A stretch of DNA of 64,000 nucleotides from Symmachiella dynata (lineage in GTDB: Bacteria; Planctomycetota; Planctomycetia; Planctomycetales; Planctomycetaceae), in assembly GCF_007747995.1 (NCBI RefSeq), contig NZ_CP036276.1:3897001-3961000 (forward strand), written 5' to 3'. The notes beneath the pieces were generated by a model. The model saw only the letters and a program-made list of their open reading frames with translations, was not told the origin of the DNA and did not search any database. The translations under genes were made by a program, and so were the position numbers. Below, piece by piece: positions 33,762-64,000 of this stretch; position 1 is the first letter of the stretch; every line of letters starts with the position of its first letter.

Positions 33762-33875
33762 GGTTCAGCTGAAATCACTTATGCTCTCCGTTCAGCGGGC
33801 CATGTTTGTACGATTTGTATTCATGTCCAGCAAATTGCAGGCCGGTTGGTACGTTCGTTTGCCGGGGATTGTGTG

Positions 33876-35414
33876 ATGACGAGAACAACCACGTCCTCGG
33901 TTCAGGCGCCACAACTCACTTCCGCTGAAAAAACATCGGCGGATTCTCCCGCGAATACTGCGGACAGTCGCGACGACAGTAAAACAAGCGAGCAGGGATT
34001 CAACCACGTTGGTCGTCACCGGATAAGCGAGCGGTTGCTTGAAGAATTGCTGTCCCCGGTTAATAACGCCAGCTTAATGGTGTTTCGGGTGGCTTTCGGA
34101 CTAGCGGTGGCGTGGTATGCACTCAGATCTCTGCTGAGCGGCTCAGTCGCCTATAACTACATCCAGCCCCCGATGCACTTTTCTTTTCAGGGGTTTGAAT
34201 GGATTCACCCTTGGCCCGGCGCGGGCATGTATTTCCATTTCACCCTGATGCTGACCGCCGCACTCTGTTTCGCCGCCGGGTTTTGCTATCGACTCAGCTC
34301 AGTGCTCGTCTTCCTGACGTTTACTTTTACATTCCTCTGTGAACGGTCGCTCTACAACAACCATTACTATTTGATGAGTCTGTTAGCGTTTCTCTCGATT
34401 TTCATTCCACTGCATCGTCGCTGGTCGGTGGATGTCTTCAGGTCACCGGAAATCGCTAGTACGTATGTCCCAGCCTGGACTGTGTGGCTCCTGCGATTTC
34501 AGTTGGGAATCGTGTATTTCTACGGGGCTGTGGCAAAACTCAACGCCGACTGGCTGCAAGGGCAGCCCATGCGGATGTGGTTGGTGAAACTCTCCGATTA
34601 TCCCGTCTTGGGGAGCTACTTCACTGAGGAATGGGCCGTCCAAACCTTTGTTTGGGGCGGTCTGTTGATTGACCTATTCGCGGTGCCGTTGCTGTTATGG
34701 CGGCGCTCGCGGCTTTATGCCTTTGCCGTGATCGTCCTGTTTCATGTCATCAATTCGACGTTGTTTGACATCGGCGTGTTTCCCTGGCTGATGATCGCTG
34801 TGACCACGTTATTCTTTTCACCAGATTGGCCGCTACGACTCGCGGGGCAGAAAAGCAGATCCGCTCCCAGCAGCTCTCCTCAAACGGTCCGTTGGACTCC
34901 GAAGCTAAGATGGGGCGTGGCTTTGTTGTCCGTCTATGTTTTACTCCAACTCGTCGTCCCGTTGCGGCATCATCTGTATGACGGCCAGACGAGTTGGACA
35001 GAGAACGGGCATTTCTTTTCCTGGCGGATGATGCTTCGCAACAAGATCGCAGCGGTCCGTTTTTATGCGCGGAATCCAGAGACGGGGCGGGAGGGGATTG
35101 TGGACCTTCGTCCCTATATCACTCCGTTGCAACTCTCTAAGATGGCCCGCGATCCCAACCACATCCTGCAGATGGCCCATTTCCTGGCTGATGATTTCCG
35201 GAAACAAGGCTTGGGGAACACCGAGATTCGCGTGAGGGCCTTGGCCTCGCTGAACGGCCGTAGGCCTCAGTATTTGATTGACCCGGATGTGGATTTGGTC
35301 AAGCAACAACTCGGCTGGTTGAAGAGCGATTGGATTGTGCCCTTGAAGGAACCGTTCCGACACGACGCCTGGGACCGTCCGGTACAGTACTGGGAAGAAG
35401 AACTCGGCCTGTGA
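33876..35414 (+). CDS. HTTM / vitamin K-dependent gamma-carboxylase-like membrane protein
   Basis: 512 residues from the ATG at 33876. A polar N-terminal 60 residues is followed by many membrane segments from about 70 to 330. The family (HTTM, PF05090) motifs are FRVAFGLAVAWYALR, YYLMSLLAFLSIFIPLHRRW and VYFYGAVAKLNADWLQGQPM. The C-terminal third is a soluble domain with YARNPETGREGIVDLRPYIT. Bacterial members are of unknown activity; the animal enzymes carboxylate Glu residues. Nothing here proves carboxylase activity. No operon partner. Confidence 0.88.
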   Translation: MTRTTTSSVQAPQLTSAEKTSADSPANTADSRDDSKTSEQGFNHVGRHRISERLLEELLSPVNNASLMVFRVAFGLAVAWYALRSLLSGSVAYNYIQPPMHFSFQGFEWIHPWPGAGMYFHFTLMLTAALCFAAGFCYRLSSVLVFLTFTFTFLCERSLYNNHYYLMSLLAFLSIFIPLHRRWSVDVFRSPEIASTYVPAWTVWLLRFQLGIVYFYGAVAKLNADWLQGQPMRMWLVKLSDYPVLGSYFTEEWAVQTFVWGGLLIDLFAVPLLLWRRSRLYAFAVIVLFHVINSTLFDIGVFPWLMIAVTTLFFSPDWPLRLAGQKSRSAPSSSPQTVRWTPKLRWGVALLSVYVLLQLVVPLRHHLYDGQTSWTENGHFFSWRMMLRNKIAAVRFYARNPETGREGIVDLRPYITPLQLSKMARDPNHILQMAHFLADDFRKQGLGNTEIRVRALASLNGRRPQYLIDPDVDLVKQQLGWLKSDWIVPLKEPFRHDAWDRPVQYWEEELGL

Positions 35415-35910: not shown

Positions 35911-38900
35911 TTATTTTGTCTGCAGCGGCGTCCAGGATTGTTTCCCGCTTGCTACATCCCATAAGGTCACTTGACCTCCACGTCCGCCAGTGGCGAGTCG
36001 TGTGCCGTCGGGGGAAAACGTGACCGTCGTCACGGCAGCAAGATGTCCTCCGGTGCATTCGTGAAGTTTCGTTCCCTGATCAAGGTCCCAGATCACGATC
36101 GTTTGCGCGTCTTTGCGGCAAAAAATAGTCGCTAACTTGTTTCCGTTGGGAGAAAAGTAACCAGCACAACCCTTTAACTCGTGAGCGACTGATTGCGTTG
36201 CCAGATCCCAGACCTTCAATCTGTCGTTGTCGTCTCCTGTTGCTAACCATTTTCCATCGGGTGAAAAGCGGAGACTGCGCACGCGATGTCCTTGTTCCAA
36301 CGTAGCTAGTAGTTTCAATGGTTGTGTTGCGGGGCGAGGGCGGTCTGACAGGTCCCATATTTGCACAATTCCCGATCGATCATCGCGACCCGAAGTCGCC
36401 AGCTGTCGACCGTCCTGTGAAAGCGCCGCATGATAAGGTTTCGACAGCTTTGCAGTCGCGATCAATAAACCGGAATTGACGTCCCAGACCCGAACCAGAT
36501 CGTCGCGGTAACAGGCGGCGACAATATTGCCATCCTGCGAGAACGTAACGCTGCCTTGAGGTCGAATGCCTTGTCCCAGAGTTTTTATGGTCTTGCCGTT
36601 CGACGCGTTGTACAGCAGAATGCCGTCGCCGATTGCGGCGAATCGTTTGCCGTCGGATGAGACCGCGTCCGGTTTGACATTGCGTCTGTAGGTCGTTTCC
36701 TCGCGCGGTTGCCAGTCCTGCGTATCAAACTCCGTCTCCCAACTATTGCTTGCACTGGCCACAACCAGCGATTTTGAATCACTGGTGAACGCCAGGTCGA
36801 TGATGCTCGATTGATAGTCGCCGTGCCGGTCACGTTCCTCTTGCCGGTTGTCGGTTGCGAATGAGTCCAGTCGCCAAACCGTAGGTTGATAGGCAATTGT
36901 TGCAAATCGAGTCCCGTCGGCTGAAATTGTCAATTGCCCACGCATATTCCGCCTGGAATCATTGCCGTAGAAGACCGGACCCATCAATTGCACAGCCTTG
37001 AGTGTCTGCGTCTTGATGTCCCACACCCGAATTGTTGAGTCAGCGCCGGCCGTGATGAGTTGTGATCCGTCCGGTGTGAATCGCATGGCGGTGATTTTGC
37101 GAGTGTGCCCGTCCAGATATCCCAGGTCTTCACCGGTGTGATAATTAACAAGCCTCACCCGGTACCGCGTTTGAAGGGGGTGCACGCCGTTGAATTCGGA
37201 TATGGCCAAAGTTTGATTGTCTGGAGAAAACGTGCGACCAAACATGCGGCGTTTCCAGGATGACCACGTATGGACCACTTTCTCGGTAGCGATATCCAAA
37301 AGCCGGACTTGGTGTCCGAACGAATATCCCTCTACGACTTGCACTCCAATGACCGCTAGGAATTTGCCATCCGGCGAAAACGAGAGCGCCTTTTCTAGAA
37401 AGTCCTCGGACTTGAGAACCTTGCGTCTCGATTTCGTCTCGACATCCCAGAGAATGATTTGACTTTTCTCCGCATGGTCATAGCGATCAATAATGGCCAA
37501 GGATTGACTATCCGGCGAAAACGCGGCATCGTCGGCCATGAAATTGATGTCCTCGATTTGCGCATGTAATCTTCGTTGGGGGATATTCCACAGGAATACT
37601 TCCGTCGCCGCGGTTCCCCGTGCGGCCAAAAACCGACCGTCGGGAGAGATCGAGAGCCAGGGATGGCCTGATGAGCCGACAAATGTTGCCAACTCGCGCC
37701 CCGTGTTGATCTCATGAAGATGAATCTGGTTCTTACTGTCGACGATCGCCACCATCGATCCATCGGGAGTCAGCGCCATATTTATCGCCGATTCGTCCGT
37801 CGGCAGTGTGACAGTCGGCGGGAGTTGGTTGATGATTTGTTCCACAGCCCAACTGCGGGGAACAATCACGAACGGCCGACTCGTTGTTTGTGTGAAAAAT
37901 CGCAATTCCTCCCCCGCCTCGACATACCGGCGAAAAAGCTCGTGCCGCGACAATTGGCCGTTGTCCAAGCGTCGCGTCACCGATCCCAACGGTTGCCAAT
38001 AGCGTTCGATGAGATGCTCGCGTGTCGTTCGTTTTGAAAATAGTGGGTGCTTGGGGCTTGGTGAGTGCTCCCACGATGCAGCCAGCATCAACAGACCCGA
38101 TTCTTTGACATGAAGATGCACCTCAGCAGGATTGGATGTTTGTTTGGCATTCGCGGCCTCGAAGGCAACGGCATGACCATCAAGCGTCTCGGGGATGTCT
38201 ATCCACCCGTTGGTATTCTGAAAGACCGCCCGAAATGCGTCCACCACATCGATCTTCGCCGGTGGAGGTGTTCCCACTTGGTCGTCGGCGCAGCGGCAGA
38301 TAATTAAGTTCCGCTCGAAGGGTGTTTTCATGCCAAGAACCCGCGCGACATCCTCGGCCGTTTTGGCGGGGGGATGGGTTCCGCTGGGAGCGAAAAAAAG
38401 GATGAGCTGCAGATCGACGGGAAGTGGAACTTGGTAGCTCTTTTTTGCATTGAACACGAACCACATCAAGTATTCCTGTTCCGGTTGGATTCGCCCTCCT
38501 TCAAGAGAGTCAAACCCAACGGTGCCGTTTTCGTCGAGTTGCACTCCTGCCAATTTCACATGGCTTACGATCTTCGATCCGCCCAGGTCCTTTTCACTCC
38601 CCTGTTCCGAAATGAAGCCGAGACGATGAAAGGTGTTGTTATTGACAACGGCCCAATACAAATCCGCCGGAACATCGAGCGGCGATTTGAATCGCAGGGC
38701 GTCGAAATTGGTGTTGTTTTGGTTGAGTCGGACAGTTTTCCATTGCACCTGCTCCGCCTCAGTCTGCCCCTCTACGGCGGGAAAAAGACTCATGTCCTCA
38801 CGCAGCGAAAGATAATATCGATCACGCTCCGATTCCTCTGTCGGCGCAATCCTGACATACTTCCAATAATCAACAAGTTTCTCCACGTGCGGCACGTCGG

Positions 38901-39924
38901 GCAAATCCCACAGGCGGATATCGTGATCGTCACCAGCCGAAGCGAACGACCGTCCATCAGGAGTCACGGCGACCGCGTGGATTTCTAGGGAATGGCCCAG
39001 AAAGGTTCTCGTGAGCAGTTTTTGTTCTACCTTGAGCAGCTTCGCGCGGTGGCTATCGGCTTTCACGACATATTTCGTTCCGGGAACGAAATCGCAAGCG
39101 GCGGTGATGCCGATCACACCCACCTCGTCCTTTTGAACCAGTTCACCCTGTGAGTTCCACTGGATATAAGTATTCACCATGTCGATGGTGCTGAGAACTT
39201 TGCCGTCCGCTGAAAACGACAAGCCGACCGGGGGAGCTTCGTGGCCTTCCAAGACTTTAATGAGCTGACCCGTCTCAACAGACCACATCCGCAGCAGCTT
39301 GCTCCCCGTTTTCCGCGAACTAAAATCCAGCAGCGGGGTGCCTTCACGCGCGACCAATGTTTTCCCATCCGGCGAAAACACAATTCCTGATACGGTCTCC
39401 TCGTGTCCGTCAATTTCGCGAATCTTGTTCCCCGTTTTAACATTCCACAGACGAATCTTGCGATCCGTGGCCCCTGTCGCCAGGGATTGTCCGTCGGGCG
39501 CAAACGCCAGCGATTGCACGGTGCCTGGATGTTGCAACACGATTGGCAATGCTGTGCCCGATTGCAGATCCCAGAAACGGACCGTCTTATCCGTGCCGCC
39601 CGACGCGGCGAGTTTTCCGTCGGGTGATACGGCGACGCACCGCACGACGTCGGTGTGTCCTGCGAGCTGATGCAATTGCTGACCGCCAGTGACATCCCAG
39701 ACACGCACCGTGTTGTCGGCTGCTGCGGAGACCAATCGTTGTCCATCGGGAGTAAAACAGAGATCCCACACCGGCTGGGTATGCCCGCTGAAAACGCGGA
39801 TTTGAAACGGCGGCGATTCGCTTGTCCCGTTCGCGGACTGTTCTTGGGCCGCATACAAGGGACTCACAGCTGTGGTCAGCAGTAACGCGGCGACGAGGCC
39901 GTTGACGGGTATTGATAAACTCAT
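35911..39924 (-). CDS. Large exported WD40-repeat protein
   Basis: 1337 residues. Signal peptide residues 1-25 (VAALLLTTAVSPLYA-A). The N-terminal propeller (about 40-350) has repeats such as GHTQPVWDLCFTPDGQRLVS then AAADNTVRVWD, and GHTDVVRCVAVSPDGKLAAS. The middle (about 380-700) is a non-repeat region with YQVPLPVDLQLILFFAPSGT and VTRRLDNGQLSRHELFRRYV, which I do not recognise. A second large set of WD repeats fills 720-1330. The start overlaps the stop of the upstream kinase gene by four bases (ATGA), indicating translational coupling. It probably binds partners of the WD40-bearing kinase in the periplasm; inference from coupling and shared domain. Confidence 0.92.
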   Translation of the reverse strand: MSLSIPVNGLVAALLLTTAVSPLYAAQEQSANGTSESPPFQIRVFSGHTQPVWDLCFTPDGQRLVSAAADNTVRVWDVTGGQQLHQLAGHTDVVRCVAVSPDGKLAASGGTDKTVRFWDLQSGTALPIVLQHPGTVQSLAFAPDGQSLATGATDRKIRLWNVKTGNKIREIDGHEETVSGIVFSPDGKTLVAREGTPLLDFSSRKTGSKLLRMWSVETGQLIKVLEGHEAPPVGLSFSADGKVLSTIDMVNTYIQWNSQGELVQKDEVGVIGITAACDFVPGTKYVVKADSHRAKLLKVEQKLLTRTFLGHSLEIHAVAVTPDGRSFASAGDDHDIRLWDLPDVPHVEKLVDYWKYVRIAPTEESERDRYYLSLREDMSLFPAVEGQTEAEQVQWKTVRLNQNNTNFDALRFKSPLDVPADLYWAVVNNNTFHRLGFISEQGSEKDLGGSKIVSHVKLAGVQLDENGTVGFDSLEGGRIQPEQEYLMWFVFNAKKSYQVPLPVDLQLILFFAPSGTHPPAKTAEDVARVLGMKTPFERNLIICRCADDQVGTPPPAKIDVVDAFRAVFQNTNGWIDIPETLDGHAVAFEAANAKQTSNPAEVHLHVKESGLLMLAASWEHSPSPKHPLFSKRTTREHLIERYWQPLGSVTRRLDNGQLSRHELFRRYVEAGEELRFFTQTTSRPFVIVPRSWAVEQIINQLPPTVTLPTDESAINMALTPDGSMVAIVDSKNQIHLHEINTGRELATFVGSSGHPWLSISPDGRFLAARGTAATEVFLWNIPQRRLHAQIEDINFMADDAAFSPDSQSLAIIDRYDHAEKSQIILWDVETKSRRKVLKSEDFLEKALSFSPDGKFLAVIGVQVVEGYSFGHQVRLLDIATEKVVHTWSSWKRRMFGRTFSPDNQTLAISEFNGVHPLQTRYRVRLVNYHTGEDLGYLDGHTRKITAMRFTPDGSQLITAGADSTIRVWDIKTQTLKAVQLMGPVFYGNDSRRNMRGQLTISADGTRFATIAYQPTVWRLDSFATDNRQEERDRHGDYQSSIIDLAFTSDSKSLVVASASNSWETEFDTQDWQPREETTYRRNVKPDAVSSDGKRFAAIGDGILLYNASNGKTIKTLGQGIRPQGSVTFSQDGNIVAACYRDDLVRVWDVNSGLLIATAKLSKPYHAALSQDGRQLATSGRDDRSGIVQIWDLSDRPRPATQPLKLLATLEQGHRVRSLRFSPDGKWLATGDDNDRLKVWDLATQSVAHELKGCAGYFSPNGNKLATIFCRKDAQTIVIWDLDQGTKLHECTGGHLAAVTTVTFSPDGTRLATGGRGGQVTLWDVASGKQSWTPLQTK

Positions 39925-42900
39925 GGCGAGGGCTTTCCGGCATCCGTTGGCGTAACGGGCGGGGGAGTATTGACAACGATGGGGAACTTGACCGTGATGT
40001 CGTAATGCCGCGATCCGTTTCTAGCGTCGTCCATATAAATAACGCACCAGTCTTTAGACTTTTTTATCGTGACTTTCCCACGCCCGCTGTTTTTCTTGAC
40101 TGTTGCATTTTCAAAGGAAACGGCCTTTGAGAGCAGGTCGACGAAACGCGGATCGGTGGAAACGGGTAACTTGTCAGGATTCCAGGGAACGCCATTGATC
40201 GTTAATTGACTGGGCCAGTTCCAAGCGCGATGCGTCCATTTCAGATGCGTTTTATAGAGCCGCAGTTCCTCCTTGCCGTCCAGGATGAGTTTAAGATGGA
40301 GCTCGGCAATTTCGCTACGTTGCGATCGGTTGAGGTTGCGTATGACAATCTGCGAATCAGACGCGATGAGCGCGAACTGATTGTTGGGCGTAAATGCAAT
40401 GTGTGCCGCCGTTAAATCGGCGAAAGAAATTTGTTTGACCTCTTGAGTCAACGCACCATCCCATTTACGAATCGTATCATCCAGAGAAGCGGAATAGACA
40501 TGTTTACCGTCGGGGGAAAACGAAGCTGAAGTCACTCCGCCTGCGTGTCCATAATAGCGACGGATCATCTCGCCGCTATTAATGTTCCAAAGCCGCATAA
40601 TGTTGTCATTGCAGGCGGCCAACAATTCTTCGCCGTTTGGGGAAAACTGCAAGGCATTGACCGTCGCGGGGATGCCACGCAGGGTGCGCAGTATTCCTGA
40701 CATCTTGAAATTCAAAATTCGCACGATTCGGTCCTCGCCAGCCATCGCGAAGGTTTGGTTATCACTGCTAACGGCAATCGCGGTCGCTTTGATGTCAATA
40801 CCTCTAAATCGCTTGATGAGTTCCCCAGTCTGTACGCTTCGTCGCGTTATGGTTCCAGCACCACTGGTGAAAATAATGGATTCTCCATCCGCGGCAAAAG
40901 CAACGTGATTCACTGGTTCGACTGGAAAATTACTCGCCGTGATCTCTTGTCCCGAATCGACACGCCACAGTTGCAGGCCTTTTATCGTCGCTGCGGCGGC
41001 CAATGTACCGTCCGGTGAGACAGCCAAGTTAGTGATCACTCCACTCGCTTGCCAACGGCGGATCTCTTTTCGTGTGTTTATGTCCCACAACACAATTGTC
41101 TTCTCGACATCGCCAGTGAGCGCATAATTGCTCTCCGATGATGTTGCAATCGAGGAGACGGTTGCAGAGTGTCCACGAAACGTCGCGTCGGTTTCGTCGG
41201 GCGCATCGGTTTCGTCTGTTTTATTGGGCGACTTGGGTGCGTCGATTTCTGGTTGGGTGGGAGCTATCTGTGGTGAGGAATCAGTTTGGCCCCCCGTCTG
41301 CGGCAGCCTCCAGATTCGCAAAGTCCCATCTGAATTTCCGGTGGCTGCAAGCTCGCCAGTCGGAGAGATCGCAAGAGCGGAAATGTTCGTCATCCCGTCT
41401 CTCCAAGTTTCCAAAACGCCAGGTCTTTCGCTGGCTGTGTTAAGGACCTCGACTTCGTTTCTTCCATCCGTGAGCAAAAATAACAGGCGGCCATCTGGGG
41501 AGATCGCAGATAATCGCGAACGGTTTGATATATACAACCGTTTGCCTGTTTCCAAATCAAACAGTTGTATCATCTGATTACCGCCACCGGCGGCGACAAG
41601 ATTTCTGATCGAAAACAAATTGCGCTCGCCACCTCTCATATCGGTGAAAACACGTTTTTTTTGGCCGCTCTCTATATCAAGGACATTTAGCGTGTCGTCA
41701 TTCGTACAGATAAGTAAGTTTCGGTTGTCTTGAGAAAATGCAAGGCCGTAGACATGGCCCGCATGATCCGAAAAGGTTTTTAGTTGTTCTCCCGTATTGG
41801 AATCCCACAAAACAACCAATCGGTTAAATCCACCGGCAGCGGCAAACCGGCCATTTGTGGAAAAACTGACGGCATAGATTGATCGCAAGCTCGTGGTTGC
41901 GAGTTGGCGTCCAGAATCCACGTCCCAAAGCCCGCCGTTGTCGTAACCACCAGTGAGTACGCGACGACCATCGGGAGAAATTTCTGCGACATTAACTTCA
42001 CGGCGATGTTCAAAGGTGGCGAGCTTGGCCCCCGTCTCCACGTCCCATACGATCGCTTGTTTATCTTTAAAGGAAGACGTCACAAATCGACGCCCATCCG
42101 CGGAAAAAGACTTGCCAATTTGTATCGTATTACCTTCCGCAAAATATCGTTTTATTACGACTTGTTTTTCGATATCCCACAGTCGCAACACCAGGTCATC
42201 ATGTAGAGACAAAAGACGTCTGCCGTCCGGTGTGAACACGACTTGGCGTACCAGACCTTCGCACCGGCCCAACAGGCATACCAAGGGGTCCTGTGTTGCG
42301 CCATCCAGCAACAAGCGCCTCGTGTTGGTTTTGGGCAAGGTGGAGTCGACGGGGGTCATTTCCGTAAAGGTCGAGCGTCCGTCAGATATCGTCCCTAACA
42401 CGGCTAACTCAGGTTCTGGCAATAAAAACGATCCCGCCACTAACATGCCCAAGCCAATCGCGACAGCTGCAACCACAAAGCGCAGTCGCAGCCATTTCCG
42501 TCGCTTTCCGCCGCCGCGCCCCACGTGCAAACGGGCCTCTGCCGTATTCAATCGTGCTACGAGCACTTCGCGCTCATTATTTAGCTGCTCATACTTGGCC
42601 CTCGCCTTCGCCTGCTGCAACCGCATCGTCTCGAGTTCTCGATCCTGCACGGCAATCTGTTCATCCAACTCGTCGGCAATACGATCCGCTTCGGCCGCAG
42701 CTTGCTCTGCCGGTTGCACGCCTGTCGCATCGGCAGTCGTTCCCTGTTTTTCCCGACACTGCTCGGCCTCTCGACGATAATCCTGGGCGTGGCTTGTCAA
42801 TTCGGCAAGGACCGATTCCGCTTCTTGGATGACTTTTGCCAACTGCGCGGCGCGCATTTTGTAAGTATGCAGTGCGCCGTCGATTTGTTGCCGTGTGTTT

Positions 42901-44696
42901 TGCAGGTTTTTGACGGCTTGGGGGGCATGTCTCTGAAACAATGAGAAAAAACGCTCCCGCTGATTCGCCCACCAGTTTGGGGAGTCGGGCTGTTCGAGCG
43001 CGGCTGGCAATTCCAGATCATCGTCGAATTGTGGGGCTGCAATGACTAAGCTCAGCGGATTCTCGTCCCCGCGGCTTTGCGAGAACATTGAACGGGGTTC
43101 CGTTTGAATGCGCGTCGGCGCGGCGGGCGGTTCGTCGCTATCGATTGCATGCGGCAACGGTTCACCCGATTGAAACGCGCGTAAATCCTCCAGGACCTCA
43201 TCGGCCGTTTGGTGTCGGTCTTCAGGGGCTTTGGACATCAGCTTGGCCACGATCGCCACCAAGGGGGCGGGGATGTCCGCAGCGGCATCTGATAACAATG
43301 GCGCCGCCTCGTAGACGTGCTGGAAGATCATCGCCGTCGGACTCTCCGCTTCAAACGGCAATTTTCCACTGAGCATCTGATACATCAGCACGCCAATGGA
43401 ATAAAGGTCCGACCGGGCGTCGATCTCCTGTCCACGTCCTTGCTCGGGCGAAATGTAATCAACCGTCCCCATGACCACGCCGGTCGCGGTTTTCGTGCTC
43501 GCATCATTGATACATTTCACCAAGCCAAAGTCCGCCAACAGCGCCCGTTTGCGTTTGCTGTCAATCAGAATGTTGCCAGGTTTGATGTCACGGTGGACCA
43601 GTCCTTGTTTATGTGCCTCCGACAGACCCGCCAGCGCTTGTTGGACCAATGCCAACGCATTATCAATGCCCAGTCGCGATGTATTTGTCAGAATATCTGC
43701 CAGGGATTTGCCGTTCACAAACTGCATGGCAAAAAAGTAATAACCCTGGTCTTCCCCGATGTAATAAATCTGAATGATATTCGGGTGCACCAACTTCGCC
43801 GCGGAACTGGCCTCGACGAAAAAACGCCTGACAAAGTCTTTTTGCCGCGCCAACCCTGCCGGGAGTACTTTGATCGCAACGGTCCGTTTCAGGTCCGGTT
43901 CAAAACCTTTGTACACATCCCCCATACCGCCATAGCCAATCCGCTCGAGGATTTCATAATGCCCGAGTCGGCTAGGAAGTTCCTCCCTGTCAGTTTCGTC
44001 GCCGGATTGCGTTTGGGGGGAAATGGTTTTTGTGTCTCGATTGACCGATTGAGAGATTGGCGTCGTGTCGGGCATCCGAGGCCTATCGACATCGACAGCA
44101 TCTTCATGAGGAATCGTTGCCGGCATCTCTGCGTCGTGCTGCGCAATTGCTGCGGTCAATCGCGCTACGAGCGTCTCGGCATCATTGAGAAGGTTGCGTT
44201 GATCAAATCCCAAGGCCGCATCAATCACTTTGCGGGCACCCGGTGGGACCTGTGCTACAATCCGCGGGCTACGTAGATAGTCATTCGGCGAACGCCCCGT
44301 AACCATCCGGCATAACAATGATCCCAATTGAAAAATATCAATCCGCCGCGGGTCGATACTCACGCCAGCTTGCTCAAGCAATTGGGCCGCTTTTTTCAAA
44401 TCTCGCGGTGCGTCCAATTGAAATCCCAACGGCCATCCTGGGGGATTCTGCCCGTCGTCGCCGACTCGGATGTTTTCGTCCGGGGACGGAGGCAATTGAG
44501 GAGTCTGATTGGCTGAGAATGTTATGGTGTCAGCGTCGATCCGTCGCTGGAATTCTCCCTTCGCATGACGCTGTGCCAACTGCTCCGCTAATGATTGTGT
44601 AATCCGCAGCGCGACCATTGCTCCCAACCGACGATGCTTGGAAATCGCGGCTGCGAGGTTCGTTCCGGCTTCCAAATCAAGGAGCGTGTCGGTCAT
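39921..44696 (-). CDS. Ser/Thr kinase with N-terminal pseudokinase-like lobe, coiled coil, TM and WD40 domains
   Basis: 1591 residues from the ATG at 44696. Residues 1-185 resemble a degenerate kinase C-lobe (IDIFQLGSLLCRMVTGRSPN, then PPGARKVIDAALGFDQRNL) without catalytic motifs. The active kinase spans about 245-508: IGYGGMGDVYKG, catalytic Lys in VAIKVLP (near 276), LVHRDIKPGNILID (near 367-380), ADFGLVK and GTVDYISPEQGRG. A coiled coil (about 595-725) leads to one transmembrane helix (about 740-762) and an exported WD40 part (about 800-1440). The C-terminal 100 residues form a conserved extension (LTINGVPWNP, VIYMDDARNGS). It precedes the coupled WD40 gene. Probably a membrane receptor kinase sensing a periplasmic ligand. 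Confidence 0.93.
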   Translation of the reverse strand: MTDTLLDLEAGTNLAAAISKHRRLGAMVALRITQSLAEQLAQRHAKGEFQRRIDADTITFSANQTPQLPPSPDENIRVGDDGQNPPGWPLGFQLDAPRDLKKAAQLLEQAGVSIDPRRIDIFQLGSLLCRMVTGRSPNDYLRSPRIVAQVPPGARKVIDAALGFDQRNLLNDAETLVARLTAAIAQHDAEMPATIPHEDAVDVDRPRMPDTTPISQSVNRDTKTISPQTQSGDETDREELPSRLGHYEILERIGYGGMGDVYKGFEPDLKRTVAIKVLPAGLARQKDFVRRFFVEASSAAKLVHPNIIQIYYIGEDQGYYFFAMQFVNGKSLADILTNTSRLGIDNALALVQQALAGLSEAHKQGLVHRDIKPGNILIDSKRKRALLADFGLVKCINDASTKTATGVVMGTVDYISPEQGRGQEIDARSDLYSIGVLMYQMLSGKLPFEAESPTAMIFQHVYEAAPLLSDAAADIPAPLVAIVAKLMSKAPEDRHQTADEVLEDLRAFQSGEPLPHAIDSDEPPAAPTRIQTEPRSMFSQSRGDENPLSLVIAAPQFDDDLELPAALEQPDSPNWWANQRERFFSLFQRHAPQAVKNLQNTRQQIDGALHTYKMRAAQLAKVIQEAESVLAELTSHAQDYRREAEQCREKQGTTADATGVQPAEQAAAEADRIADELDEQIAVQDRELETMRLQQAKARAKYEQLNNEREVLVARLNTAEARLHVGRGGGKRRKWLRLRFVVAAVAIGLGMLVAGSFLLPEPELAVLGTISDGRSTFTEMTPVDSTLPKTNTRRLLLDGATQDPLVCLLGRCEGLVRQVVFTPDGRRLLSLHDDLVLRLWDIEKQVVIKRYFAEGNTIQIGKSFSADGRRFVTSSFKDKQAIVWDVETGAKLATFEHRREVNVAEISPDGRRVLTGGYDNGGLWDVDSGRQLATTSLRSIYAVSFSTNGRFAAAGGFNRLVVLWDSNTGEQLKTFSDHAGHVYGLAFSQDNRNLLICTNDDTLNVLDIESGQKKRVFTDMRGGERNLFSIRNLVAAGGGNQMIQLFDLETGKRLYISNRSRLSAISPDGRLLFLLTDGRNEVEVLNTASERPGVLETWRDGMTNISALAISPTGELAATGNSDGTLRIWRLPQTGGQTDSSPQIAPTQPEIDAPKSPNKTDETDAPDETDATFRGHSATVSSIATSSESNYALTGDVEKTIVLWDINTRKEIRRWQASGVITNLAVSPDGTLAAAATIKGLQLWRVDSGQEITASNFPVEPVNHVAFAADGESIIFTSGAGTITRRSVQTGELIKRFRGIDIKATAIAVSSDNQTFAMAGEDRIVRILNFKMSGILRTLRGIPATVNALQFSPNGEELLAACNDNIMRLWNINSGEMIRRYYGHAGGVTSASFSPDGKHVYSASLDDTIRKWDGALTQEVKQISFADLTAAHIAFTPNNQFALIASDSQIVIRNLNRSQRSEIAELHLKLILDGKEELRLYKTHLKWTHRAWNWPSQLTINGVPWNPDKLPVSTDPRFVDLLSKAVSFENATVKKNSGRGKVTIKKSKDWCVIYMDDARNGSRHYDITVKFPIVVNTPPPVTPTDAGKPSP

Positions 44697-44904
44697 AGTA
44701 TCACTTTGAGAATGCTCCCTAGAGCGGGATAAGAGCCATCCTGAACCGGCTCGACGCACAGGTTGATCTTATCAGGAAATCACACCTAAACCGAATGGTT
44801 TGATACGAATCATACCAAAACAATGGACCAGCCACACCGGTATATTCAATTCGAAGCAAAGGCGAGGATCTTGCGATAACCACGATGGATCGACTCAACG
44901 GGTC

Positions 44905-45582
44905 TCATTGTAGGTCGCGTTTCATGGCATCCAGTTGATTGTCAATGCTGTCATTGACCGCCGTAGAGCAATTCGAGGCGGCTTTAAATGATTTGTCAGC
45001 CCCTCCCTCTAGTTCCGCTAACGCTTCCGCTTCGGCTTCGGTCCGTTCGACACGATCGCGCAGACGGTCGAATTTGGCGAAGGCTCCGTCGTCGAAACCC
45101 AATTCCTCATCGGCGGCTTGCAAGTGTATTTTCTTGCGGACATTGGCAGCGCGCTGACGGGCCGACAAGGTTGCCAGTGTCCGTTTCGCTTCCGCCAACT
45201 TAGCCTGCATTGCTTCGAACTGATGCCGAAGTGTCTGGCTCGCATCCTGAGCCGCTGCCAATTGATCGCGTAGAGCAACTGCCAATTTGTCGTGTTCTTG
45301 CTTACGCTGTAAAGCTTTGCGGGCGAGTTCGTCATCGCCTGCCTGCACCGCCTGCTGGGCACGATTCTTCCAGTTCAACGACTCCGATTCGTTACTGGCC
45401 AATTCACGCTCGACCAATTTGGTACTAGCCATTGCTTTGGCGGTTTGCTTGCGAGCTTCGGCAATGGAATCCTCCATTTCCCAAACGGCTTGTTTGAGCA
45501 TTTTTTCCGGGTCTTCGAATTGCTCTGCCATGTCATTGAAGTTCGCCGAAATGATGTCGCTAATACGATCAAATAGTCCCAT
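44905..45582 (-). CDS. pspA: PspA/IM30 family membrane-stress protein
   Basis: 225 residues, the normal length. MGLFDRISDIISANFNDMAE then FEDPEKMLKQAVWEMEDSI is the classic amphipathic N-terminus that binds stressed membrane. Nearly the whole protein is coiled coil, with ELASNESESLNWKNRAQQAV and EEL-type heptads. The family forms ESCRT-III-like rods that maintain the inner membrane. No pspF-like activator adjoins, and I found no sigma-54 promoter just upstream. It lies between a rhomboid protease gene 61 bases upstream and the kinase gene 208 bases downstream, all on the same strand, suggesting a membrane-stress group. Confidence 0.93.
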   Translation of the reverse strand: MGLFDRISDIISANFNDMAEQFEDPEKMLKQAVWEMEDSIAEARKQTAKAMASTKLVERELASNESESLNWKNRAQQAVQAGDDELARKALQRKQEHDKLAVALRDQLAAAQDASQTLRHQFEAMQAKLAEAKRTLATLSARQRAANVRKKIHLQAADEELGFDDGAFAKFDRLRDRVERTEAEAEALAELEGGADKSFKAASNCSTAVNDSIDNQLDAMKRDLQ

Positions 45583-45643
45583 TTTCGTTTCTCCGGTTTC
45601 TTAGATAAATTGCAATCGTTTTGCTCAACGCGCCAGGAACTGT

Positions 45644-46345
45644 TTATGTGCTCCAAGTTGTTGAAGATCGTCGGACAGTCAGCGATCTGGGAAACAGCAA
45701 CACCACACCGAGGCCAAACACAAATCCCAAAAGATGTCCAAAATGGCCCCAATGCCAACGACCTGAATTGAGCCACCAGCAGAACATCCCCACGGTTTCC
45801 ATAATGGGAACGAACAGCAGGCACCACACAACGGGGACCTGAAATTCGCCTCCACGGACAAACCAGAAGATGCCGTATTTGGGCCGACTGATCATGCCCA
45901 ACAAAATCGTGAATGGAAACACAGCGGCATAGATCACTGTCATCCGTGCCGCGGGAAGTAATAGGGCCGCGATTCCAATAACCGCATAGATCGCCCCTGA
46001 AGCGCCAACCAACGGCACTGCAAGGAACAGATACGCGAATAGCCCCAGGGTGAGGATCGCCCCCAAATAAGCTAATAGATAGTAGCCGTTACCGAGTCGG
46101 CGATTCACCGGATTGCCGAAGACCCATAAAACCCACATGTTGAATACCAAATGCCAAAAACCGGCGTGAGCGAAGCCGTGGCCTAGTATAGAAATCGGCG
46201 AAGCAGCTCGATGCACTCCCCAACTAAGCGGATCGAAAAGCAGGAAAACCACCACATTTAGGGCGATGATCACACCATTGGCGATCGGCAATTGTGTGCG
46301 TTGGAGGCGAGTTTCTGAGATTTGCACCGGCAACGGAAAAAACAT
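45644..46345 (-). CDS. Rhomboid family intramembrane serine protease
   Basis: 233 residues with about six hydrophobic segments. The family motifs are complete: HGFAHAGFWHLVFNMWVLWV (loop 1 and TM2), catalytic Ser116 in VGASGAIYA (G-x-S-G), and catalytic His in WGHFGHLLGFVFG (near 201). It should cleave transmembrane substrates within the inner membrane. The ATG at 46345 begins a polar leader before TM1. It probably shares a transcript with pspA downstream. Substrates may include the neighbouring single-pass kinase; that is speculation from position. Confidence 0.92.
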   Translation of the reverse strand: MFFPLPVQISETRLQRTQLPIANGVIIALNVVVFLLFDPLSWGVHRAASPISILGHGFAHAGFWHLVFNMWVLWVFGNPVNRRLGNGYYLLAYLGAILTLGLFAYLFLAVPLVGASGAIYAVIGIAALLLPAARMTVIYAAVFPFTILLGMISRPKYGIFWFVRGGEFQVPVVWCLLFVPIMETVGMFCWWLNSGRWHWGHFGHLLGFVFGLGVVLLFPRSLTVRRSSTTWST

Positions 46346-46750
46346 GGATGACTCCTTTGAAGTTGCTTGATATCACTGCCGCCCGTCTCCGAAGAGTTCT
46401 CCCGGGCACGGGGATTCGTAGTATGGGGCTCTTCACGAAAGCTGGATTGCCTGGCACGTCGCTCTCACTATGAATGTAGTCAACGTGCAGATTCTGCATG
46501 AAATTCTCAGCGTTTTTTAGAATTCTTCGCAACGCGGCCCCGCGATATCGGGGATCTTCGCAACCATGACCGTTTCCCGAGGAAATGCCGTTCTTGACAC
46601 CACACTGATCTTTGTGCCACTATTTCTTGTTAGAATGCCAACGTAGGCAAACAGTCTTTTCAATTGGCCTGTCGATTCCAGCTGTACGATTCGAGTCAGA
46701 TCTTCATCCCGTTGGCTAATGCTCACCCTTTCTCCTGGGGATTTAAACAA
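46346..46750. promoter_or_regulatory. Divergent promoter region rhomboid / ECF sigma
   Basis: About 400 bases between divergent genes. A 77-codon minus frame (46517-46750) lacks any family features. No specific promoter could be assigned with confidence. Confidence 0.35.
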
Positions 46751-47590
46751 GTGGCGTTTCCAAACACTCGCCTAACCTTAATCCAGCGGCTTGCAACTCA
46801 AAGTGATAATGCCGATTGGAACGAATTCCTGCGGGATTATTGGGGCCCGGTTTGCCGTTTTGCGCAGTGGCAAGGTGGATTGTCGCACGAAGATGCGGAG
46901 GATATTGCCTCGGCGACATTCGAAGTGATATTCAAAAATAATTTGCTGCAAAAATGGGTGACTGATAGAAATGCGAAGCTCCGCACGCTGCTTTGCGTCG
47001 TGTCCCGCAATCTCATCTCAAACCATCTCCGCGTGCGCGAAGGACGCAAGCGACTAAGGCGAGATCATGCGGATCGTTTTGATGAACGTTTTGTGCTCAA
47101 AGACATCGACGTTCCGGCCGATCAGCAAGATCAGTTTTATGCGGGATGGGCGGCTGACTTGATTCAGCAGGTGCTGGACCAGTTGATGCAGGAATACCAC
47201 GCTAAAGGGCGTGGTGACTACTTTCGCGTGCTGCATGGAAAATTGTGTGACCGCATGCCCATGCGTGAAATCGCCGAAAGTCTTGGCATGAGTGCAAGCA
47301 CAGCGGAAAACTATTACAAACATGTCCGTCAACGGTTAAGCGTTCTGTTGGAATCCGCTATTCGTCAGCATGTGCGACGGTACGCTGCTCCCTCCGAAGT
47401 GGATGAAGAGTTTGCCACTGAATGGGCCGATCTCGCGAAACATTTGCGTGGCCAGGGAGGATTGGAGTCCACCATCGAAAAGATGTGGAGCGGCGAAGAC
47501 GTCGATCAGTATGATTCACGGCAAAAGTCGCTCAACCGAGCAGTCGCGCAACTCGATTCATTAGTCCACGTTCCCCCAGCCCGGCCGTAA
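46751..47590 (+). CDS. ECF-like sigma-70 factor, planctomycete long type
   Basis: 279 residues from the GTG at 46751, chosen because related planctomycete sigma factors begin with the motif FPNTRLTLIQRL. Region 2: FLRDYWGPVCRFAQWQGGLS, HEDAEDIASATFEVIFKNN and LRTLLCVVSRNLISNHLRVR. Region 4: MPMREIAESLGMSASTAENY then YKHVRQRL. The C-terminal 60 residues are an extension. These factors often adjoin large Ser/Thr kinases; a WD40 kinase lies 2 kb away on the other strand. An upstream ATG at 46664 adds 29 residues of no similarity. Confidence 0.88.
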   Translation: MAFPNTRLTLIQRLATQSDNADWNEFLRDYWGPVCRFAQWQGGLSHEDAEDIASATFEVIFKNNLLQKWVTDRNAKLRTLLCVVSRNLISNHLRVREGRKRLRRDHADRFDERFVLKDIDVPADQQDQFYAGWAADLIQQVLDQLMQEYHAKGRGDYFRVLHGKLCDRMPMREIAESLGMSASTAENYYKHVRQRLSVLLESAIRQHVRRYAAPSEVDEEFATEWADLAKHLRGQGGLESTIEKMWSGEDVDQYDSRQKSLNRAVAQLDSLVHVPPARP

Positions 47591-57704: not shown

Positions 57705-58064
57705 CTACATTTCTTCATTAGCATTGTCCACATCGGCTCCCGAATGCGCAAGGGGCGACTCATCAACGACCGTGCCTTTCCATTTGGGGATCCGCTGTTG
57801 ATGCGCGGCTCGGCCAATCATGTGTGCAGCCACCGGAGCAGTTAGGAACAGGAAGCCGATAACCAGAATGGCGACGGTGGTGGTTTCCGTGTCATTAAAT
57901 CGGATGGCAGTCGCAAGTATTGTGCACCCCACGCCCAACGTTGCACTTTTGGTGGCACCGTGCATGCGCGTGAACAGATCCGGCATGCGCACAATCGCAA
58001 TTGATGCCAATAGGGCGAAAGCCGTCCCGGCGACGAGCAGTATGATCGTTACGATATCGCTCAA
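57705..58064 (-). CDS. mrpG: Mrp Na+/H+ antiporter subunit G
   Basis: 119 residues; start overlaps the mrpF stop (ATGA). Three hydrophobic segments: [34 protein letters not shown]; and [20 protein letters not shown]. The motif [20 protein letters not shown] is diagnostic of MnhG/PhaG. The last subunit of the complex, needed for assembly. The acidic C-terminal tail is polar. Confidence 0.94.
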
Positions 58065-58390
58065 TGGTCAGGCCCTCGTTGCAGGTACCAGCAAAAACCG
58101 ATGGTCCCGATAAAACTAAACAATGCCGCCACCATGGCCACGCGCAGGAAAATCACGTCGCCCGTTTCGATTGCGCTGACCGCAATCATTCCCACCAGCA
58201 ATGTGGCGGCAAGATCTAGAGCGACTACGCGATCGGGTAGCGTCGGTCCCAGCACAAGTCGCAGGAACGCAAACCCCAGTGCAATCACCAACACAATCAG
58301 CGAAACTTGTGCCGTCACATTCACCAATGTTGTCGCCGCGAGCATCGGCGTGGCTAGGGTCAAGTCCGTTGTCAAGAAATTCATCGTCAT
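58061..58390 (-). CDS. mrpF: Mrp Na+/H+ antiporter subunit F
   Basis: 109 residues; start overlaps mrpE by four bases. Three transmembrane segments with [20 protein letters not shown] then [12 protein letters not shown], the MnhF/PhaF signature. Small subunit of the inner-membrane antiporter. Confidence 0.94.
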
Positions 58391-58860
58391 CGAATCAACT
58401 CCAGTAAACGCCGCTCGAATCCGTTCTTGATGCTATCGCGAACATTGTCGGGGCTGTCGACAAACATTGCATGCACGTACAGCGTACGACGGTCTTTCGA
58501 CACGTCTAGGCTCAGTGTGCCGGGTGTCAAGGTGATCAGATTCGCCAGCAAGGTGATTTCCAGGTCGGTTTTCGCGTCGAGCGGCACAGCGACGATTCCT
58601 GGTCGCATATATAACCGTGGCGTGATGACGTCGTAAGCGACCCGCAGATTGGACAACAGCAGTTGCCAGAGGAAATAACCAAAAAAACGCAGACCGACCG
58701 GTAATCTTTGGAAGTAGCGAGACGGCCCCATAATCGGTTGTGAAAACCACAAGATGCCGTATCCCAGGGCAAAGCCAACAACAAGGCTTGATAAGGAGAT
58801 TTGTCCGTTCGCCAGTCCCCAGACCAGCGCCAGAAAGATGTTGAAAAAGAAGTAATTCAT
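58387..58860 (-). CDS. mrpE: Mrp Na+/H+ antiporter subunit E
   Basis: 157 residues; start overlaps mrpD (ATGA). Two N-terminal hydrophobic segments then a cytoplasmic domain with [20 protein letters not shown] then [18 protein letters not shown], the MnhE signature. Confidence 0.94.
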
Positions 58861-60485
58861 CGCACTGCCCCTTCGCGGATTGATGCCAGAGGTCCATGCG
58901 ACTCAAGGTTCTGTGCAGCGACGGAAGCAACGTTTGTTTCCGGAACGAGAAACCCCGTTTGGCTCTCCGTCAAATGAGAATCCGGCAATACGGCTTTGAT
59001 GTAAATATCTGGATCGAGCAGTTGTTCGGCAGTGGCGAGGGAAGCAATCATCACCGGTCCCGCCATCACACCGATTCCCACGGTAATCGTCGCCAGAAGG
59101 AGTGTTGGTCCGAACAGGCTAACTTGCTCAGTCGTCGCGCGAGGGTTTCTAGACGCTTTCACCCCCGTTCCCTCAGGCGTCGGTTTCCAAAAGACTTCGG
59201 CCCAGATTTTCGTCATCGAAAACAGAGTCAGCAGACTCACCATCAATGCCGCCGCGACGATGGCGTAACGTTCCGCCTCCAGTCCGCCTTGGATCAAAGT
59301 CAGTTTCGCGAAGAAACCCGATAATGGCGGAACTCCGGCCAGGGACATCGCGGACACAAAGAACAATGTCGCCAGCACCGGCGCCGAGCGATACAGGCCC
59401 CCAACCTCCGCCAGACGGCCGGTACCAAAACGTCGTTCGACGATTCCACCAATCAGAAACAGATTCGTTTTCACAACGATGTGGTGAATGATGTAAAAGA
59501 TGGAACCAGCTAAGGCCAGCGGCGTGAACAAGGCAAGTCCCATCAGCATGTAGCCGATCTGGCTGACGATATGAAACGACAGAATACGGCGAATCTCGGT
59601 CTGAGCCATCGCTCCGAGCACGCCGGTCACCATCGTGAGCCCAGCAATCACTAACAGCAAATTGTGGGTGAATTCCAAATCGGTCACAAACAGCAGTGTG
59701 AACGATCGGATGAGTGAATAAACGCCAACCTTTGTGAGTAGACCGGCGAAGATTGCAGACACGGCGACCGGCGGAGTGTGGTACGACGCCGGCAGCCAGA
59801 AAAACAGGGGGAACACGGCTGCTTTGGTCCCGAAGGCAATCAGAAACAACATTGCGAGAACAGACACAATGCCTTCGTCTGGAAAGCTTCTTAGCTTCAG
59901 AGCGAGGTCTGCCATATTCAGCGTTCCGGTGGCAGCATAAATCACCCCGATGGCCGCCAAAAACACTGCGGAAGAGACCAGATTTAATGTAACGTATTTG
60001 ATGGCTCCTTCCAGTTGCCCACGTTCGCCGCCGAGCGTCAGCAGCACGAACGACGAAATCAGCATGACTTCAAACCACACATACAGATTGAATAGGTCTC
60101 CTGTCAAAAACGCTCCGCACACGCCCATGAGCAGCAACTGAATGAGTGGATGAAATCCAAAATCGATGCGGCGGTCGTCAATTGTTGCGATGGAATACAC
60201 CGACACGGCAAACACCATTAACCCTGCGAGCATCACCATGATCGAACTCAAACGGTCTGCTACCAATGTGATTCCAAACGGAGGGGGCCAGTTTCCCACC
60301 TGCAACACAAGGATTCCGTCACGGTCAACCAACCACATGAGCGCAGCGGCGGACAGTAGCAGCAGCGCCGAACCGACGACGCCGATCACTTTCTGAGCGG
60401 CAACGGAATTCCACGCCAGCAGCAGCATCGCCATCGTAGCTAGCGGCAGAGCGATCGGAAGTATAATGGCAACCTGAGCAATCAT
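58857..60485 (-). CDS. mrpD: Mrp Na+/H+ antiporter subunit D
   Basis: 542 residues with about fourteen membrane segments, related to complex I antiporter-like subunits (ND2/ND4/ND5). [17 protein letters not shown] and [20 protein letters not shown] carry the Lys and His of the proton path; [17 protein letters not shown] has the essential Glu in TM5. The C-terminal 60 residues are a soluble tail. The start overlaps mrpC (ATGA). Confidence 0.95.
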
Positions 60486-60829
60486 GTGTCGGTCGCCTTG
60501 AGTTGGTCCAAATCTTCCGTCCCCAAGGATTGGTACGTGCGGTAGATCAGAACGAGAGCAAACGCCAACACAGCGAAACTAATCACAATGGCTGTCAGGA
60601 TGAGTGCTTGAGGTAACGGATCGGCGACGGTTGTCAGCGGTTGGGATTCACCGGCTGGCACAACGGGAACACGGCCGCGCACGATTCCACCTGCGGTAAA
60701 CAGGAGTAGGTTGGCGGCGTGGCTTAGTAGGCCAAGTCCAATCAGCAGCTTGACGACGCTGCGCCGCAACATCATGTAGATGCCTGCTGCATACAATCCG
60801 CCGACAGTGATGGCTAAAACAATGTCCAT
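60482..60829 (-). CDS. mrpC: Mrp Na+/H+ antiporter subunit C
   Basis: 115 residues, three membrane segments, NuoK-like: [20 protein letters not shown] then [20 protein letters not shown], and [20 protein letters not shown]. It starts 11 bases after mrpB stops. Confidence 0.95.
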
Positions 60830-60840
60830 GGCGCTTATTC

Positions 60841-61256
60841 TTATTCTTCGAGTAGTGAAAAGACAAAGACGAGTGTGACTCCTGTCACGACGCAGAAAAC
60901 ACCGAGATCAAATAGCAATGGCGTCCCAAGATGTAGTTCTCCCAATCCGGTGATCGTTGTTGATGTCCACAGCCCGGTGAGAAAAGGTCGGCCCAAGAAT
61001 AACGGGACCAATCCACTGCTCAGCGACATCAGCAGCCCTGAACCAATAAGAACCCGCGGCGATACGCGTACCACTTGCCGAGCTGCCGCTGCATTGTATG
61101 TCATCGCGTACAACGCCATTGCACCGCTGGCCACCAAGCCACCAACAAAACCACCTCCCGGTTCGTTGTGCCCACGGAGAAACAGAAACACCGACGAGAG
61201 CAGCAGCAATGGCAATAGGAAGCGAATCGCTGTCTTTAGAATTACGGAATCCATGG

Positions 61257-61260
<4 letters not shown>
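60841..61260 (-). CDS. mrpB: Mrp Na+/H+ antiporter subunit B
   Basis: 139 residues with four membrane segments. [20 protein letters not shown] is the MnhB signature (PF04039). The start overlaps the mrpA stop (ATGA). Confidence 0.95.
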
Positions 61261-63617
<2,357 letters not shown>

Positions 63618-63672
63618 TCCTGATAAAATCTTCAGGGACGGACTTCATAGTGTCTGTAAACGAAACGAAAAA

Positions 63673-63688
63673 AGCAATTCCCATGCCA
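63673..63688 (-). promoter_or_regulatory. Candidate sigma-54 (-24/-12) promoter, mrp operon
   Basis: On the minus strand TGGCATGGGAATTGCT, one mismatch from TGGCAC-R-N4-TTGCW, GG and GC ten bases apart. The mrpA start is about 56 bases downstream, close to the spacing at the other sigma-54 sites of the cluster. Confidence 0.75.
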
Positions 63689-63788
63689 CTGGCCGCTACG
63701 AGACGTCCTGGCGACTCGAAAAACTGAACCGTCCAGTGAGAGCGGCAGTGCTATCACTGACGTGGTACACGACTTTGCTCGCGTTGAA

Positions 63789-63959
63789 ATGTTAGAGAAA
63801 CAGCTGACGAAAACAAACGCGTGGTACAGTCTGCATCAACACGATTGCGGCGAGGTCGCTTGGGTTCTGGTCACTCCTCTTGGTGACGAAACAATTGTTT
63901 TGGGATTGTACCGTTTAAAGTTTGGCATGACGATTGCATTTACGGCGGAACCGGTGTGA
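63789..63959 (+). CDS. Small hypothetical protein divergent from mrpA
   Basis: 56 residues from the ATG at 63789 (a GTG at 63762 would add nine). It reads NAWYSLHQHDCGEVAWVLVT then LGDETIVLGLYRLKFGMTIA, a beta-rich composition with complete start and stop. No family recognised. The remaining bases to the window end hold nothing I can name. Confidence 0.4.
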   Translation: MLEKQLTKTNAWYSLHQHDCGEVAWVLVTPLGDETIVLGLYRLKFGMTIAFTAEPV

Positions 63960-64000
63960 GTGATCGCGGGGCAATCGGCATGACATGCGATGTTTTCCGT

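Follow-up and report, generated by a model that had tools for sequence, protein, structure and literature searches.

A rhomboid protease, a PspA protein, a large receptor kinase and a second WD40 protein are encoded side by side on the minus strand of the window (the whole stretch of 64,000 nucleotides analysed here, from the Symmachiella dynata genome of 7.77 Mb in one contig), and the gene of an ECF sigma factor lies divergent from them on the plus strand. This block is conserved beyond what a single sequence could show, and the conserved set of neighbours looks like a new wiring from membrane-damage sensing to gene activation. Our preferred reading, to which we give a probability of about 0.55, is that the set would form a self-contained Psp-like circuit for envelope stress, with PspA regulating the receptor kinase by way of a PspA-like coil and the sigma factor under the control of the kinase. 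The observations behind it are the gene content, the conserved linkage, the co-occurrence of coil and PspA and an upstream motif common to the relatives, from which we infer the binding, the phosphorylation, the direction of the signal and which sigma factor reads the motif. The module bears on the perception of damage by the unusual membranes of planctomycetes and on the inputs of the kinase-linked ECF sigma factors in this phylum. It offers one such sigma factor a candidate signal, PspA or the state of the membrane, and candidates for its receptor and promoter, and the coil-less kinases without PspA provide a natural contrast.

Gene content of the block and anatomy of the receptor

Open reading frames and Pfam matches bear out the four same-strand genes that a sequence-only reading of the window had named (Table 1). 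The interval it drew, 35911-46345, covers all four and leaves out the sigma factor gene, which is part of the unit. Two starts differ from the frames as called: the kinase frame 39921-44759 gives 1612 amino acids from a GTG at 44759, and the alignment of homologues moves the start to an internal ATG at 44696, leaving 1591; the sigma frame, called as 46664-47590, is placed by its homologues at a GTG at 46751.

Table 1. Features of the block and of the divergent sigma factor gene, in window coordinates.
Feature	Position	Strand	Basis
Second WD40 protein	35911..39924	-	1337 aa; WD40 repeats (Pfam)
Receptor kinase	39921..44696	-	ATG start by homologues; Pkinase PF00069 166.5 bits
WD40 part of receptor, predicted exported	40320..42302 (borders approximate)	-	PF00400 195.4 bits
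Single transmembrane helix, kinase side basic	42423..42506	-	Sequence and AlphaFold2
Juxtamembrane helical hairpin (coil), PspA/Vipp1-like in relatives	42522..42974	-	AlphaFold2 helices; weak for window copy alone
PknB-like Ser/Thr kinase domain	43191..43958	-	Pfam and alignment of 24
N-terminal pseudokinase, C-lobe only	44127..44696 (borders approximate)	-	hhalign; AlphaFold2 helices
PspA	44905..45582	-	PspA_IM30 PF04012 144.2 bits (gathering score 33.9)
Rhomboid intramembrane serine protease	45644..46345	-	PF01694 71.5 bits (cut-off 22.6)
Candidate promoter of rhomboid operon	46470..46501	-	Diverged copy of TTACCGnA-N13-TACATnA
ECF sigma factor	46751..47590	+	GTG start by homologues, 279 aa; TIGR02937 52.4 bits (cut-off 42.9)

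The rhomboid catalytic motifs, GxSG(A) and a late His, were present in 9/9 aligned members when the alignment was read by eye. A four-base ATGA (39921-39924) contains both the stop codon of the kinase gene and the start ATG of the next gene, that of the second WD40 protein, which begins with a hydrophobic, signal-like stretch. Pfam WD40 repeats occur in both large proteins. PspB, PspC and PspF, one of which a classical Psp response would carry in the unit, do not appear among the Pfam and NCBIfam matches listed for the six proteins of block and flank, these being the best 25 of 56 Pfam matches in the case of the two WD40 proteins. Adjoining the block, at 33846-35414, is the gene of an HTTM / vitamin-K-dependent-carboxylase-like protein with five matches in the genome, itself included; at 58001-64000 the AT skew is strongly positive (0.17-0.21) over 6 kb, unlike that of the remaining window.

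From its N-terminus the receptor consists of a kinase C-lobe, a PknB-like kinase, a long helical hairpin (hereafter the coil), one membrane helix and the WD40 part; it is a predicted single-pass membrane protein with a cytoplasmic N-terminus. The degenerate kinase-like lobe reported from the sequence proved to comprise just a C-lobe: in a profile alignment it covers columns 91-274 of the 281 of the real kinase (hhalign 98.8%, E 4e-17), and the N-lobe and the catalytic motifs are lacking. In the second kinase domain the Lys, HRD and DFG are invariant across the alignment of 24, which identifies a PknB-type Ser/Thr kinase. The cytoplasmic part, modelled with AlphaFold2 (mean pLDDT 80.2, pTM 0.47), has helices at residues 575-588, 592-653 and 657-725 in the hairpin region, followed by the membrane helix at 731-758. 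Judged by profile search, the coil is particular to this kinase, since the coil profile matches one place in a genome with dozens of kinase matches.

The sigma factor passes the general ECF model and falls below the cut-off for all three Pfam sigma models that it matches. It carries DAED in region 2 and, in the alignment of 22 sigma factors, a C-terminal extension after region 4; the region 2 motif of the 22 reads DAED, DVED, DAEE or EAEE. None of the block's scanned proteins was recognised as an anti-sigma factor.

The coil, its probable likeness to PspA, and the rhomboid

We compared the surroundings of 41 non-duplicate kinases, 30 with the coil and 11 without it, the latter including two (L089 and L148) whose coil region is cut off at the contig end. 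PspA was encoded within 6 kb of 28/30 coil kinases versus 0/11 of the others, in a sample of which the loci L064-L094 had been fetched because they matched the kinase or PspA. The two coil kinases without it were L088, where the contig ends, and L083, in which coil, sigma and kinase are present and PspA is absent. For a table of coil against PspA restricted to 27/1/0/8 (leaving out L089, L148, the second kinase of L072, L088 and L093, where the flanking DNA was too short), Fisher's test gave 3e-7, a value that ignores shared descent. The tree implies four changes of the coil, of which well-supported branches require three; its deep branches lack support. For the three independent coil/PspA contrasts the mean agreement is 2.9 of 3, a number of contrasts too small to reach significance. 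A rhomboid gene was near 17/30 coil kinases versus 0/11 others, and among the 13/30 with none in the fetched locus one, L088, is at a contig end. The sigma gene lay in the fetched locus of 38/41 kinases, which makes it a kinase-linked ECF sigma factor; for the other three (L065, L066 and L093) a sigma gene was found on other contigs of the same genomes.

Some loci depart from the usual content. L130 (8144-17209) holds two coil kinases, two PspA genes, a sigma and a rhomboid gene, a duplicated module. Downstream of their main kinase, L065 (252-3599) and L066 (1078-4431) each encode a further WD40 kinase, which has no N-terminal lobe and matches the coil with 73 and 69 bits, respectively. Five loci (L079, L082, L084, L085 and L087) have a related PspA without the module kinase; its neighbour there is a multi-pass membrane protein (about 290-340 amino acids).

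We judge it quite likely, from comparisons of sequence and predicted structure, that the coil is PspA-like. When 18 coils were scanned singly against Pfam, 16 matched PspA_IM30 at E<=10 (the next families reached 9), and PspA_IM30 was the top family for 5/10 singly scanned coils. The best match had E 3.6e-8 and 33.7 bits, just below the gathering score for PF04012, which no coil among the 18 reaches; the coil of the window is weak, with 10.9 bits, E 0.35 and PspA_IM30 sixth of 19. Aligned profile to profile, coil and PspA scored 40.7 (hhalign, 77.6%), versus 19.7 for the reversed profile and at most 19.2 for 30 block shuffles; neither profile finds the other in the genome of the window at E<=10. 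A sequence search of the PDB returned Vipp1 or PspA in 7 of the first 12 places (E 0.012-0.10), the first match being an unrelated protein, and Foldseek with the coil model returned Vipp1 in its first six (E 0.007-0.018, none at E<=0.001). In VIA-align PspA came third, tied with unrelated hairpins. Shuffle tests with a narrow PspA model were divided: 8/18 coils beat all but at most one of 100 own shuffles, 4/18 were marginal and 6/18 were not distinct, 16 to 96 of their 100 shuffles doing as well or better; for the window coil 3/100 scored as high. The reverse test was weaker: for 8/21 PspA proteins no more than 2 of 50 shuffles did equally well. An amphipathic alpha-0 ahead of the coil, as in PspA, beat nearly all shuffles in 7/16 members, the window not among them, and we did not count it as evidence.

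A more specific idea, possible though tentative, is that this built-in PspA (ESCRT-III-like) segment of the receptor kinase co-assembles with free PspA, so that the state of the polymer would gate the kinase and the sigma factor. If so, membrane damage would be read directly as the state of a membrane-remodelling polymer.

The strongest competitor, which we hold to be somewhat unlikely, takes the coil for a plain coiled coil through which the receptor dimerises: kinase-ECF signalling would then control the pspA operon, and PspA would be an output and not a regulator of the kinase. The weak similarity of the window coil, the mixed shuffle tests and the generic hairpins that tie with PspA in VIA-align fit such a coil, as does L083 with its coil kept without PspA. 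Against it, no coil-less kinase of the same family (0/11, two of them cut at contig ends) is near PspA or a rhomboid, the coils match PspA_IM30 more often than any other family, and Vipp1 leads the Foldseek list. Considerably less probable is a proteolytic pathway, in which the rhomboid would cut the membrane helix of the receptor and the freed cytoplasmic kinase, with PspA bound, would act on the sigma factor. The single-pass receptor, the presence of a rhomboid near 17/30 coil kinases and 0/11 others, and its catalytic motifs in the nine aligned members suit this scheme, but the fetched locus of 13/30 coil kinases has no rhomboid, and the orientation of the receptor counts against it, an N-terminus in the cytoplasm being unusual for rhomboid substrates. 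The circuit in which PspA regulates the kinase through the coil is favoured over both.

Distribution of the unit and the motif upstream of it

In a sample of 170 genomes of the order, searched at E<=1e-80 for the kinase and E<=1e-25 for the sigma factor, the sigma factor was found in 25 and the kinase in 23, all of them among the 25. The remaining two sigma genomes (G108 and G148) have coil matches, so that a kinase or a coil is present in the same 25 genomes, and the divergent sigma factor belongs to the unit, as the sequence-only reading had suggested. One of the kinase genomes (G044) has only broken pieces of the module, the scored kinase lacking its N-terminal lobe; its locus L081 (9774-11123) carries broken PspA and pseudokinase-kinase pieces, a decayed module copy. 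The PspA of the module is distinct, with matches at E<=1e-52 in 16/170 genomes, all among the 23 with the kinase, and matches weaker than this are PspA proteins in other contexts. Neither kinase nor sigma factor was found in the two other sampled genomes of the genus, and the distribution is therefore patchy. An empty-site comparison with the sister species was uninformative because the best counterpart there of the adjoining HTTM gene, at 44%, does not qualify as a clear orthologue.

The grouping proposed from the one sequence extends beyond close relatives. A class-wide draw of 397 genomes placed the coil in two genomes of other families, the first with sigma, rhomboid, PspA and kinase on one strand and the second with sigma and kinase and a divergent PspA; at L120, which is from another family, rhomboid, PspA and kinase follow each other in this order on one strand. 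A coil search in a phylum-wide draw of 392 genomes added no new lineage, its 8 genomes all belonging to the family of the window. When named contigs were searched with the sigma factor only, 37 loci were obtained and the kinase was present in the fetched DNA of 25; 13 of the 37 were already sampled contigs, recognised by their length and left out of the counts as duplicates, and 14 of the 24 new loci hold the kinase. Chance adjacency was rejected, as sigma and kinase share genomes and the search by sigma only recovers the kinase. That the genes have separate functions and are kept together merely by shared descent is very improbable: most members come from one family, and the patchy distribution with its absence from the two other sampled genomes of the genus would agree with it, but gene order and strand vary between loci and the set stays together, other families included, and sigma and kinase share a genome even when they are on different contigs (G001, G076 and G078).

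The coil-kinase operons have a common motif, TTACCGnA-N13-TACATnA, ahead of their leading gene (rhomboid or pspA). Allowing three mismatches or fewer, it occurred in 17/24 operon-head regions versus 60/3000 random stretches, 0/22 regions upstream of sigma genes at coil loci and 1/10 at coil-less loci. At two mismatches or fewer it was present in 1/10 regions where the kinase comes first, in 2/4 upstream of a rhomboid gene inside a run, in 0/15 upstream of pspA inside a run and in 1/7 upstream of pspA genes without a kinase in the locus. When each region was scored with a matrix built without its own cluster, 24/24 ranked in the top 2.5% against 400 random stretches and 22 in the top 1%, in a test that is not fully blind because the seed and spacing had been chosen with all regions in view, on the same regions that were later scored. 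The sigma genes lack the motif, 1/32 of their upstream regions scoring above the 95th percentile. Motif discovery excluded six close relatives, which were kept, grouped in the leave-out, for the mismatch and matrix scoring.

The copy in the window is the weakest of the 24, its score being reached by 2.5% of 400 random stretches, and clearer copies exist in relatives. The exact TGACCGA form occurred in 5/11 genomes searched, once and at pspA in four of them and twice in G036, where one copy is at pspA. The genome of the window has two one-mismatch matches, neither at the block, and a regulon beyond the operon did not emerge from the 11 genomes, in which 23 one-mismatch matches compare with 17 for a reversed control pattern. 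Within 44600-46800 no sigma-70-type promoter was found, and terminator-like sites were at chance level (3 versus 2.8 in shuffles), one lying between PspA and the kinase. The sigma factor of the module may read this motif.

A proposed circuit and its known counterparts

In the circuit that we favour, the simplest to give every part a role, the receptor would have its WD40 part outside and the pseudokinase, kinase and PspA-like hairpin inside, and the hairpin would hold the receptor together with free PspA. Upon membrane damage PspA might be drawn to the lesion or polymerise, and receptors would be freed or clustered. The PknB-type kinase, once activated, would control the unit's own ECF sigma factor; phosphorylation is the likeliest means, given that no anti-sigma factor was recognised among the scanned proteins. 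The sigma factor could then drive the rhomboid-pspA-kinase-WD40 operon from the shared type of promoter, which would make the feedback positive. The outer part of the receptor probably has the second WD40 protein as its partner, and the rhomboid, near just over half of the coil kinases, would have an accessory role, perhaps in ending or tuning the signal.

Our literature search, which was not exhaustive, found no description of a PspA-kinase-rhomboid-ECF unit in planctomycetes, and we do not claim its absence from print. In the accessible portions of the main text of two Psp surveys (PMC9239133 and PMC11237479) the words planctomycet-, rhomboid and WD40 do not appear, nor do phage shock, pspA and rhomboid in that of a transcriptome study of Rhodopirellula baltica (PMC2754498). 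The accessible text of PMC11237479 links a sigma factor to Toastrack operons and describes PspA fusions as rare (<2% of homologues) and as involving other domains.

WD40 receptor kinases as such are already known in the phylum: the planctomycete WD40 membrane Ser/Thr kinases described in the part of PMC11032199 available to us share with the window's receptor the cytoplasmic kinase, the one membrane helix and the periplasmic WD40 part, to which the module adds the N-terminal kinase C-lobe, the PspA-like coil, a dedicated sigma factor and PspA. As in the kinase-linked ECF systems treated in the accessible text of PMC8999054 (ECF43 with its EcfP-PknT pair, and the planctomycete ECF59, ECF61, ECF62 and ECF217), the ECF gene is beside a Ser/Thr kinase gene and no anti-sigma factor is recognised. 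According to that text, control by phosphorylation is reported for ECF43 and predicted for the planctomycete groups linked to Ser/Thr kinases. ECF43 is defined there by the missing DAED in region 2.2, a definition that none of the 22 aligned sigma factors fits; unlike ECF43, the sigma factor of the module keeps a DAED-type region 2, so that the site and the sign of control would differ. The kinase, moreover, has a pseudokinase and a PspA-like hairpin in addition, and pspA, often with a rhomboid gene, is in the unit.

The module resembles the Psp response (pspF-pspABC, lia) in that PspA is central and tied to a membrane sensor and a transcription regulator, the gene of which is often divergent. 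It differs in that a Ser/Thr receptor kinase, an ECF sigma factor, a rhomboid and WD40 proteins stand in place of PspB/PspC/PspF or LiaFSR. The module would extend the Psp response to Ser/Thr kinase signalling and would place an ESCRT-III-like element within a receptor; as an arrangement, it is a variant that joins known kinds, the Psp response and the kinase-ECF pairs.
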